Source of the DNA: Opitutales bacterium
GTDB lineage: Bacteria; Verrucomicrobiota; Verrucomicrobiia; Opitutales; T3Sed10-336
Assembly (NCBI GenBank): GCA_007130045.1
Contig: SLTG01000111.1
Location: forward strand, 1 to 40,989
DNA: 40,989 bases
Direction of reading: 5' to 3'
Shown here in pieces: positions 1 through 40,780 of this stretch. The notes beneath the pieces are model-generated. The model saw only the letters and a program-made list of their open reading frames with translations. It had not been told where the DNA came from and searched no databases. Numbering within the stretch: the stretch's first letter is position 1; each line of letters starts with the position of its first letter. Both the position numbers and the translations under genes were made by a program.

Positions 1-160
1 GGTAGAACACGGACCCTTCAGGGTTGGCCCGGTTCGGGGCGCTGAGCTGCATCTTCTCGACGGCGAAGGGGTTGCGGATGATGTACTGGGCCAGCCGCTC
101 CAGATCATCGCGCTGGTCGGGCGGCACGCGCCGGCTGCGATACACGTTGCGGCGGCGGAT
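1..160 (-). pseudogene. IS91/IS801-type transposase fragment
   Basis: Translating the minus strand from about base 160 down to base 1 gives an open frame that runs off the window edge. It contains RRRNVYRSRRVPP, then LERLAQYIIRNPFAVEKM and a final GSVFY. This matches, from memory, the C-terminal part of IS91/IS801/IS1294-like putative transposases, where a LERLaRYiaRpPf segment is followed by G-x-V-x-Y. The N-terminal part, with the zinc-finger and catalytic tyrosines, would have to lie to the right, but base 158 onward is the RAYT inverted repeat and no such sequence follows. I therefore read it as a remnant cut by, or abutting, the neighbouring element. The frame happens to continue through the repeat to an ATG at 179-181, so a short chimeric reading frame is possible. 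Whether the gene's end is intact beyond the window cannot be seen. Confidence 0.6.
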
Positions 161-187
161 GGGGTCAGTCCACGAATTCATGCAAAA
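158..187. repeat. Left copy of RAYT-flanking inverted repeat
   Basis: Bases 158-187 match the reverse complement of bases 1216-1245 at 29 of 30 positions. The core reads GGGGTCAGTCCACGAATTC. The two copies frame the RAYT gene symmetrically, so they look like the REP-type sequences recognised by the transposase. The single mismatch is at base 180 (A here, T in the complement of the right copy). Confidence 0.85.
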
Positions 188-230
188 TAGGATTGAGGGC
201 GAACTACCGTTCCTGTGAAATGGGAACCAT

Positions 231-1190
231 ATGGCGAGGAAGATACGCATAGAGTACGCAGGGGCGTATTACCACGTGATCAACCGTGGCAATTACCGTT
301 CGTGGATCTTCGAGAGTGAGGGGGCGCGTAAAAGTTTTTCGGGTTGTTTGCGGGAGTGTTGTGAGGCCAAGGGCTGGCGGCTGCATGCGTGGGTGTTGAT
401 GGGGAATCATTACCATTTGTGCGTGGAGGCGCCGGAGCCGAACCTGGTGGAGGGGATGAAGTGGCTGCAATCGACCTTCTCGAACCGTTTCAATCGTTAT
501 CGCAAGATGAACGGTCATGTTTTCCAGGGGCGCTACAAGGCGATTCTGCCGGAAGGGGATGCGGTGGGTCCTGTTTGCCACTATATCCATTTGAATCCGG
601 TGCGTGCGGGCTTGGTGGAGGCCGGTTCGCTGCAAACGTATGCGTACGGGAGCTTCCAGGGTTTGTGGCATCCGCACAAACGCTGGTCGTTCGAGTATTT
701 CGGTGCCGCGTTGGAATCAGCTGGGGGGCTGGCGGACGGTCCGAAAGGGAGGCGCTTGTACCGGGATTATCTGGAGTGGTTGTCGGAGGAAGAGCCTGAA
801 CGCAAGCGACTGGGTTTCGAGACGATGAGCCACGGATGGGCGAAGGGGACGAAGGCGTTTAAAAAGGCGGTTTCGGAAGACTTGAAGGACGAAGAGCTGA
901 GGAAAATCGTCGAGGCGGAGGCTTCGGAGTTGCGGGAGCCCCGATGGGAGAGATCGCTGGCCCATGGATTGGAGCAATTGGGGCGCGGCGAACCGGAACT
1001 GCGCGAAAGCCGAAAGGGGGAGCGATGGAAGGTCGCCCTCGCCCGCTGGCTTCGTGAAACCCATCTGGTCCCGAACGGGTGGATCGCCGAGCGGTTGTGC
1101 ATGGGAACCGGTGATGGAGTGAGCAGTCTGATCAGCCGCCACCGGAGACTCCGGGGCGAGAAATTCTACGCGACCCTTAAAAAACCATGA
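231..1190 (+). CDS. REP-associated tyrosine transposase (RAYT)
   Basis: A 319-residue Y1/HUH-type transposase of the IS200-related REP-associated group. These enzymes nick single-stranded DNA at repetitive extragenic palindromes and are thought to mobilise the repeats. The N-terminal half carries the family signature: YHVINRGNYR near residues 14-23, the HUH metal site as H60-Y61-H62 in MGNHYHLCVE, the segment GHVFQGRYKAI at about 95-105, and HYIHLNPVRAGLV at 117-129, where Y118 is the likely catalytic tyrosine. The region after about residue 190 is charged and probably helical, a C-terminal extension common in larger RAYTs. No strong ribosome-binding site is seen; the first ATG of the frame gives the conserved MARK-I-RIEYAGAYYH start. 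The gene sits alone between two inverted repeats (158-187 and 1216-1245). All hallmark residues are present, so it appears intact. Confidence 0.92.
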   Translation: MARKIRIEYAGAYYHVINRGNYRSWIFESEGARKSFSGCLRECCEAKGWRLHAWVLMGNHYHLCVEAPEPNLVEGMKWLQSTFSNRFNRYRKMNGHVFQGRYKAILPEGDAVGPVCHYIHLNPVRAGLVEAGSLQTYAYGSFQGLWHPHKRWSFEYFGAALESAGGLADGPKGRRLYRDYLEWLSEEEPERKRLGFETMSHGWAKGTKAFKKAVSEDLKDEELRKIVEAEASELREPRWERSLAHGLEQLGRGEPELRESRKGERWKVALARWLRETHLVPNGWIAERLCMGTGDGVSSLISRHRRLRGEKFYATLKKP

Positions 1191-1215
1191 AAGGCCGGAC
1201 TCCATTCGAAGTATG

Positions 1216-1245
1216 TTTTGCAAGAATTCGTGGACTGACCCCATC
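1216..1245. repeat. Right copy of RAYT-flanking inverted repeat
   Basis: This is the inverted partner of 158-187 (29 of 30 matches) and begins 26 bases after the RAYT stop codon. Together the pair would delimit a unit of about 1.09 kb. A diverged third copy lies at 40241-40262 in the same orientation as this one. Confidence 0.85.
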
Positions 1246-39850: not shown

Positions 39851-40309
39851 CGCCGCCGGCGTTGCCTGTACCGGACGGGATCGTCGAAGCTACGGGCTAA
39901 AGTCAACAACCCAACCGGCATTGACTCTCGCTCGCCAAATGCGTCTAATTCAGCCTGTGAAGGGGGGCTGATGACAAAATCACGGTGGGCAGCTGGATAT
40001 GAAGGCGCTGGACATACCGGCCGGGCTCCGGCGGAAACAAGAAGCAGTTCACGTGGCTTGCTCACTTGCGAGCGCTTCGGGGGCAGGGTGGCGTGCGCCG
40101 TTTCCGGGCATTCTCGCCCAAGCGCGGACGTCACGGGAGGGACTCCGGATGAGGTGGGGGTCCGAGGAGCTCCGGACAGCTCAAATTGACTTGGTTGATG
40201 GCGAAGTTCCACGTTCGACCGCTTTGATTCCCTCAAAAATCAAGAATTCGTGTACCGACCCCCTGCGGCGCCGTCCGAACCGAGGCCGCGCCTCGCCGGG
40301 AGAATTGTC
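39851..40309. other. Gap with RAYT-repeat copy and no supported gene
   Basis: These 459 bases lie between the integrase remnant and the small membrane-protein gene. Both strands carry short GC-rich frames but none has a recognisable domain or good start. The only structured element I see is the repeat copy at 40241-40262. The region may be debris of the integrated element. Confidence 0.4.
40241..40262 (+). repeat. Solo diverged copy of the RAYT-flanking repeat
   Basis: This 22-base stretch (CAAGAATTCGTG, then TACCGACCCC) matches bases 1221-1242, the core of the right RAYT repeat, at 20 of 22 positions and in the same orientation. No partner copy or transposase is nearby. It looks like a dispersed REP-type element related to the RAYT system at the other end of the window. 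Confidence 0.6.
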
Positions 40310-40780
40310 ATGCGAAACCTGACCCCAAAACCCGTGGTTGGCGTCGCGGGGCTGTTGATCAGCATTCTGAGCTTGTTTCCGTTCATTCTGCTTGTAAGCG
40401 CGGCCAATATCATGCTTTTACAGATCCCCCAGATGCAAGGGCCGGGAACAGGGCAGGTTATAAAAATACTCTTGGCCGGTCCCACCTTGCTACTTCTCCT
40501 CATTGCCTGGTTGGGTCTGGTCCTCTTCGCATTCGATTCCTTTTCAAAAGGAATAAAGGAAGGCACGTTCCTGCGGCGTTTTGCCCTGCTGACTTCGTTC
40601 GTCCTGTACCTTTTCCCTTTGGTGATTTTGCTCTACCATTTCCTCTTTCCGGACCCAATGACAGGTATTGGGATTGTTTTTCCTGTTCCTTGGATGCGAG
40701 TGGATTGGATTATGGCGGGGGCGGGACTGCTTTTGGGAAGTGTCTTTCTGTATGTCCACCGATCTCTTTCTCGACGGTGA
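40310..40780 (+). CDS. Small four-helix membrane protein of unknown function
   Basis: A 156-residue protein with four hydrophobic helices (about 9-30, 55-78, 92-113 and 130-148). I place the start at the ATG at 40310 because GGGAG lies seven bases upstream and the protein then begins MRNLTPKPVVGVAGLL. A longer frame from 40250 would include the repeat. No conserved motif or family is recognised. Between helices there are short loops, such as a polar cytoplasmic loop FDSFSKGIKEGTFLRR. It is flanked by mobile-element debris on both sides, so it may be cargo or an isolated chromosomal gene. The sequence is otherwise unremarkable. Confidence 0.6.
   Translation: MRNLTPKPVVGVAGLLISILSLFPFILLVSAANIMLLQIPQMQGPGTGQVIKILLAGPTLLLLLIAWLGLVLFAFDSFSKGIKEGTFLRRFALLTSFVLYLFPLVILLYHFLFPDPMTGIGIVFPVPWMRVDWIMAGAGLLLGSVFLYVHRSLSRR

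Follow-up and report, generated by a model that had tools for sequence, protein, structure and literature searches.

The unit at the left end of the stretch of DNA analysed here (40,989 nucleotides from an Opitutales bacterium, hereafter the window) is a TIRtron, a transposon-like element in which the gene for a TIRYT transposase is the only gene. We consider it probable that this unit is an intact member, showing no sign of a recent move of its own, of a family that does move and whose transposase would nick the DNA at a fixed distance outside the conserved core of its ends. TIRtrons and their TIRYTs form an already known but barely studied family, and what is added here to the description by Di Nocera et al. 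(2013, PMC3733652) concerns the relatives of the window unit, namely the anatomy of their ends, tandem duplications that span the end junctions with a nearly constant outer breakpoint, and signs of movement. An earlier sequence-only reading had treated the repeats and the gene between them as a transposon-like whole, and this is borne out by the arms, the open reading frame (ORF), the dispersed related copies and one uninterrupted paralogous site.

The near-perfect 30-bp inverted repeat on which that reading was based was reproduced, with 29 of 30 nt complementary (97%) between positions 158–187 and 1216–1245 and an intact ORF (231–1190) between the two arms. It is the best inverted pair in the first 3 kb; a search with an exact seed of 12 and a length of at least 20 returned eight pairs in the 41-kb window, of which the other seven are 75–90% complementary. 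Local alignment of one flank of the gene against the other gave a score of 27.5, compared with a maximum of 16.0 in 20,000 shuffles. Once the arms of 65 relatives had been aligned, the left terminal inverted repeat could be set at 159–185 on the forward strand (core ATGGGGTCA at 159–167, unit-specific part at 168–185) and the right one at 1218–1244 on the reverse strand (core at 1244–1236, unit-specific part at 1235–1218), giving a unit of 159–1244 from core to core. Each arm thus reads ATGGGGTCA followed by GTCCACGAATTCATGCAA, which conforms to the end layout of the family described below. At a length of 40 nt the arms fold no better than shuffled sequence (z of +1.15 and +1.01, with 181 and 177 of 200 shuffles folding as well or better), and for the 75-nt ends z is +1.63 on the left and −0.96 on the right. 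In some TIRtrons the repeats recur through the genome as a family; the end type of the window unit occurs in its own genome as the two arms and one further site, a solo end-like sequence at 40244–40263 on the reverse strand with three mismatches to the arm of the unit. A second end-like core, spotted by eye, lies about 60 nt away in the same orientation at 40311–40325, near the right end of the contig, and the two are possibly solo ends.

The transposase gene (231–1190, forward strand) encodes 319 amino acids, with a Y1 HuH domain at approximately residues 1–131 that carries the motifs NHYH, FQ and YIHLNP. The protein matches Pfam Y1_Tnp above the cut-off (E 9e-14) and NCBIfam REP_Tyr_transpos with 61.7 bits, under that model's cut-off of 80. 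Among 86 proteins, the window's included, NH[YF]H is present in 84, FQ in 82 and Y[IV]HLNP in 80. A sequence search of the PDB with the window protein gave no match at 0.01, and a structure model was built from a 67-sequence alignment (mean pLDDT 94.6). The best match to residues 1–201 of the model is the Escherichia coli RAYT 4ER8 (Z 17.7, rmsd 2.3 over 156 residues), and the IS608 and ISDra2 transposases rank next with Z of about 9–11. When the C-terminal 117 residues were modelled separately (pLDDT 89.3), the model matched DnaA domain IV in three structures (3PVP, Z 9.1; 1J1V, Z 8.8; 8BTG, Z 8.4), the next row having a Z of 5.2. Foldseek alone found no match to this C-terminal model at E 0.001, and the Pfam models Bac_DnaA_C, HTH_23 and HTH_28 matched none of 57 proteins. 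As modelled, the C-terminus of the window protein folds like DnaA domain IV, over residues of about 237–319 (939–1187, forward strand).

These features place the unit within a described class. TIRtrons are defined by Di Nocera et al. (2013) as a Y1 transposase gene within long terminal inverted repeats, some of which hold a GGGGWSAS core, and the window likewise has a Y1 gene between long inverted repeats that are unrelated to GTAG REPs, with GGGGTCAG at 161–168 and 1242–1235 fitting GGGGWSAS. Further points of likeness to the elements as they are portrayed in that paper are arms that differ from gene to gene and ends that also occur as dimers or clusters, and its account of TIRtrons contains no defining difference from the window unit. 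Because TIRtrons are defined by their inverted-repeat frame, such a frame is normal for a unit of this kind; the near-perfect repeat that had seemed exceptional for a 'RAYT' is a defining trait of TIRYTs. On its motifs the predicted transposase is a member of TnpA_Y1 subclass 2.1, which is Bertels group (1) as printed in Quentin et al. (2018, PMC6006769), and whose signatures in Table 1 of that paper include NH[YF]H, FQ and Y[IV]HLNP. The members described there share with the window protein, besides the motifs, a great length and, at the C-terminus, an HTH akin to the DNA-binding domain of DnaA, a trait that the window protein has on its fold and not on Pfam sequence models. For subclass 2.1 that survey reports an absence of REP-like sequences, and copies sharing a genome are on average 49.2% identical there, whereas some of the genomes considered here hold copies that are 91–99.7% identical.

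Two other classes were considered and set aside. The REPtron/RAYT of E. coli (4ER8; Nunvar et al. 2010, PMC2817692; PMC8266576) resembles the window unit, as far as these sources describe it, in its HuH fold and in having the gene flanked by inverted elements, whereas the window arms show no hairpin above shuffles, the window protein has an extra DnaA-like domain and the whole unit appears to move. In a canonical REPtron the flanking REPs carry GT[AG]G at the base of a hairpin; the window arm does contain a GTGG string (GTGGACTGACC), in arms that fold no better than shuffled sequence. Members of the IS200/IS605 family (IS608, ISDra2) share the catalytic fold at the Z values given above, but they have subterminal hairpins and the known members lack terminal inverted repeats according to PMC2817692, whereas the window has long inverted repeats and no arm hairpin. 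Two relatives, L143 and L158 (in genomes G216 and G173), carry a REP-like inverted repeat, GACCGCTTC...GAAGCGGTC, in their arms after the GGGGTCA core, and such arms may connect TIR-type with REP-type ends.

Relatives were found at E 1e-20 in 67 of the 273 genomes of the order. The places sampled there gave 117 matches, of which 98 are full length, 91 have enough flank and 88 were left after the removal of three duplicates. The rest of the phylum (other orders and classes, sampled at 60 out-of-order places) gave 59 full-length matches, 58 with flank and 52 with arms above a threshold of 14, of which eight have no core by the fixed rule, leaving 88 ends. Copy numbers are lower bounds because at most eight candidates per genome were scored in the order and at most five in the other set. 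Among the named relatives that one scan of contigs brought up are an Opitutaceae and a Puniceicoccaceae bacterium; a search of plasmids gave one partial match (E 1e-25), and a search of phages gave no match at 1e-10.

Inverted arms frame most of these genes: an inverted pair outscores all 1,760 shuffles in 73 of the 88 units of the order (the window included) and exceeds the threshold of 14 in 52 of the 58 units from the rest of the phylum, with no arm pair above threshold in the remaining 15 and 6. True pairs have a median score of 23.5 against 9.0 for pairs taken across units, and a unit's own right arm ranked top in 49 of 88 cases and among the top three in 72. The sequence-only reading had suggested mapping the repeat boundaries over several copies, and this was done with 65 arms, namely those scoring more than 14 after three without a recognised core and five that were too short had been removed. 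Positions −4 to +4 (AWGGGGTCA) are common to nearly all of them. Positions +5 to +22 are private, with a left/right identity of 0.65–0.89 per position, partly selected because only arms above 14 were taken, against 0.29–0.50 across units; similarity then drops at +23/+24. Judged by this alignment, the end of the family is the shared 9-mer AWGGGGTCA followed by about 18 nt private to each unit. The private stretch correlates weakly with parts of the protein (Spearman 0.17–0.30, 41 units). Several private stretches also hold a direct repeat at a lag of 7 nt (for example TTTGTAGTTTGTAG, TTACCTTTTACCTT and TTCATATTTCATAT), which was noticed before being tested and reaches a z of 4.2 over 15 representative families, to which 54 arms in register had been clustered; the window's own arm lacks it (0 of 8 matches). 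The string TTGAC stands beside 20 of the 65 left arms and 5 of the 65 right arms and is a possible promoter element next to the left arm; the window has TTGAGG there.

Comparison of copies within and between genomes indicates that the TIRYT family moves. The search for additional intact units that the sequence-only reading had suggested turned up dispersed copies with unrelated outer flanks in four genomes: three copies 91–98% identical in G013, three 93–96% identical in G071, copies 94% identical in G223, and copies 99.7% identical and 2.2 kb apart in G090. A unit 87% identical between G090 and G161 lies at unrelated sites with homology running from core to core, and among related copies at unrelated sites homology often stops at the unit ends or no more than a few tens of nt from them. 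In a relative, G046, the end type of the window unit is present at 12 sites; there is also a 377-bp internally deleted derivative with this end type (L144:15–391 on G046:C94), and there are other partial copies (L145–L151). The gene pieces seen in this genome are partial, and a protein search of its 86%-complete assembly gave no relative at E 1e-20 or better.

The sites themselves offer one resolved junction. In G013 ten foreign bases separate a host sequence ending in GGACGTCCG from the core AAGGGGTCA, and a paralogue of the host sequence (97% identical over 986 bp) continues uninterrupted past the same point, which puts the junction 10 nt outside the core; the opposite flank of the insertion does not match the continuation of the paralogue. 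The search for empty sites thus yielded an uninterrupted paralogous site seen from one side and no two-sided one, the latter being absent from genus-wide DNA searches with four loci (L112, L034, L091 and L084). The two flanks of L112 lie apart in G090 and G234, the search with L091 succeeded on one side only and that with L084 gave nothing. In genus g59, to which L034 belongs, 13 genomes have a conserved gene flank, and the unit follows it in three and is absent in nine that were inspected and, as judged by match coordinates alone, in one more, G163; on the second side conservation is lacking. Joining the flanks revealed no clear split gene among the 30 listed of 42 cases.

The main alternative to movement is a domesticated gene, in which the protein would no longer move itself and the repeats would be operator or REP-like sites serving regulation or a host function. 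PMC8049555 portrays RAYTs as single-copy genes that are passed on vertically, the window's genome has no second unit of the same sequence, and four relatives (L213, L214, L222 and L227), each the single listed match of its g90 genome, have no detectable arms and are possible domesticated descendants. Against this stand arms that are more alike within a unit than across units, the dispersed, decayed and internally deleted copies, the uninterrupted paralogue, the different neighbours in relatives, and the arms that two other g90 members (L216 and L223) do carry, and we think domestication improbable as an account of the unit.

For the window copy itself the evidence of movement is indirect. The window is one whole contig (G000:C8) of a 3.4-Mb genome in 146 contigs, and the recent move that had been suggested for its unit is unsupported, there being no near-identical second copy in this genome. 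A second full-length family transposase is present (L012:30–1080 on G000:C84), 44% identical and with a GACGTCAGG-type core, and its left end is duplicated with a 61-nt period and an outer point 8–11 nt outside the core; the window unit has no end duplication listed in the tandem-duplication scan. The genome also holds a transposase fragment cut by the end of contig C72 (L013:2800–2963) and a short transposase remnant on C124 (L014:2992–3055). Had all relatives carried the same single copy at one locus, mobility would have been hard to argue; in the event, none of seven relatives (61–70% identical, two of them partial) has a neighbour in its sampled flanks that matches a window gene. Conversely, no such transposase lies in the sampled flanks of three GDSL homologues of the unit's right-hand neighbour in the window (two from the same genus and one from the same family), a weak comparison since the proteins are 56–60% identical and wider synteny is lacking. 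We take the window copy as an intact member that shows no sign of having moved recently.

The ends of the relatives bear tandem duplications of a particular kind. Of 140 flanks, each 100 nt long, 20 hold an extra core; shuffles gave 2.0 on average and 8 at most, and 3 of 132 control windows held one. Just outside 31 of 140 ends there is a repeat of 7 nt of flank plus the 9-nt core, which arises with a mean of 0.1 and a maximum of 2 when the flank is taken from another unit. An anchor-free scan for exact tandem duplications in 71 units of the order placed 41 within 60 nt of the ends (2.41/kb) and 5 in far flanks totalling 111.9 kb (0.045/kb), and the 66.9 kb of unit interior yielded none; the 41 events do not all span a core, and not all are independent, because some copies inherited their duplications (e.g. 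L020 and L084). The 52 units of the other set have 34 end duplications, in 20 units, with none in 50.9 kb inside units and 11 in 80.6 kb of far flanks, 10 of which contain the core-like GGGGTC or GGTGTC. In five units (L093, L109, L255, L257 and L258) successive end duplications with different inner lengths form small end arrays. No description of a tandem-duplication scar made of flank plus start of the unit was found in the literature searched.

Within each set the outer breakpoint hardly varies. Measured by the length of flank that is shared exactly, it lies 9–11 nt outside the core in 26 of the 33 clean cases from the order, in agreement with the 10 nt of the single resolved insertion junction in G013. 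A breakpoint of 9–10 nt everywhere had been predicted at first, and this failed in the other set, where the original rule picked up 4 of 88 ends, none with 9–10 nt; there the breakpoint lies 2–5 nt outside the core in 35 of 44 cases, a constant that is seen only under a looser core rule chosen after that failure. The looser rules also underlie the counts for the order and for the inner breakpoint. The latter favours +5/+6, right after the core (13 of 29 in the order and 17 of 33 in the other set), and ranges to +50 and +40, respectively. Microhomology at the breakpoints, counted by hand in the listed cases, is 0–1 nt in 25 of 33 and 30 of 44. No base preference was seen at the outer breakpoint, in which the family differs from the TnpA_REP enzymes treated in PMC8266576, which cut at CT or CA.

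Ordinary replication slippage, or artefacts of assembly, would be the simplest source of such repeats, being conceivable at G-rich and A-rich ends and in genomes many of which are fragmented assemblies. This explanation seems to us very improbable, since microhomology is mostly 0–1 nt, no duplications occur within the 66.9 and 50.9 kb of unit sequence, the outer breakpoint is nearly constant within each set, and duplications are also present in the one-contig or near-complete genomes G035, G125, G223, G557 and G609. Self-targeting is a more serious contender, in which a second, identical copy inserts immediately inward of the core of a resident end and recombination then removes one copy, leaving flank plus core ahead of the remaining one. 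It, too, predicts a fixed outer breakpoint, and it predicts a preferred inner one such as that at +5 or +6; it nevertheless requires two steps per event, and neither the serial duplications of different inner lengths nor the lack of shared bases at the outer junction accords with it, so that we regard it as rather unlikely.

We favour instead the possibility that the near-constant outer breakpoint may be the cut site of the transposase. In the mechanism envisaged, the C-terminal tail and the HuH domain would read the ends, and the catalytic tyrosine, Y118, would nick one strand at a fixed distance outside the core, 9–11 nt away in the order and 2–5 nt away elsewhere in the phylum. The nick would leave a 3′-OH and a 5′-phosphotyrosine, as in the chemistry that PMC8266576 describes for TnpA_REP. 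The segment so bounded would be moved, and a 3′-OH that was extended a short way inward and rejoined would give a tandem duplication of the flank and the start of the unit. That the distance at which TIRYTs cut outside their ends is fixed for each clade (about 10 nt in the order and about 3 nt in the rest), and that they leave tandem scars by nicking, extension and rejoining, is offered tentatively, as a proposal whose chances we put at less than even.

Flank carried along with a moved unit lends this cut-site reading weak support. Of 21 comparisons of ends in the order with unrelated outer flanks, three share at least 7 nt (L020/L084 10, L034/L035 9 and L027/L091 7 nt) and 18 share 0–6; the L108/L111 pair, 98.9% identical, shares 0 nt on the right and 4 on the left, and for the only pair from the other set the values are 4 and 1 nt. 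Some low values arise from a core mis-set by the rule (L020/L084 right, L027 left, L045 and L108 right), but L104/L112 (1 and 0) and L109 (0 and 0) are low with a correctly set core, and carry-over is therefore partial at best. In the window unit, a nick 10 nt outside each core would add predicted stretches at 149–158 and 1245–1254, placed by analogy with the family, and the moved segment would be about 149–1254.

The predicted boundary at 149 lies close to the neighbour on the left, a fragment of an IS91-type (Y2/HuH) transposase at 2–157 on the reverse strand that had been described as truncated and directly abutted by the left repeat. The first part of that description stands: 33 residues of 2–157 align at 52% to residues 244–276 of a 431-residue IS91-type open frame, which itself matches Y2_Tnp and Zn_Tnp_IS91, and the N-terminal part is missing. 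The C-terminal part is cut at base 1 as well, because the window is the whole contig. Contact with the arm is not established, because the similarity extends to base 148 in one comparison and to base 127 in another. The further suggestion that the unit had disrupted the IS91-type gene finds no support, as the missing N-terminal part lies neither across the unit nor elsewhere in the window. That the unit nevertheless entered this gene and divided it, with subsequent loss of the second half, is favoured by similarity reaching base 148, next to the predicted boundary; yet the N-terminal sequence is found neither to the right of the unit nor elsewhere in the window, the whole genome has a single match to IS91-type sequence, and the alternative alignment ending at base 127 leaves the junction unfixed to the base. 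Such a history strikes us as somewhat unlikely.

Taken at the strength given above, the regularities suggest a concrete cut site, a concrete substrate (the 27-nt end and roughly 10 nt of adjoining flank) and a footprint open to search in any genome, and they bear on whether RAYT-like proteins move their own genes and on where TIRYTs cut. If the proposal is true, the end arrays would record abortive HuH activity and would not be products of recombination, and the same might hold for REP/BIME arrays.
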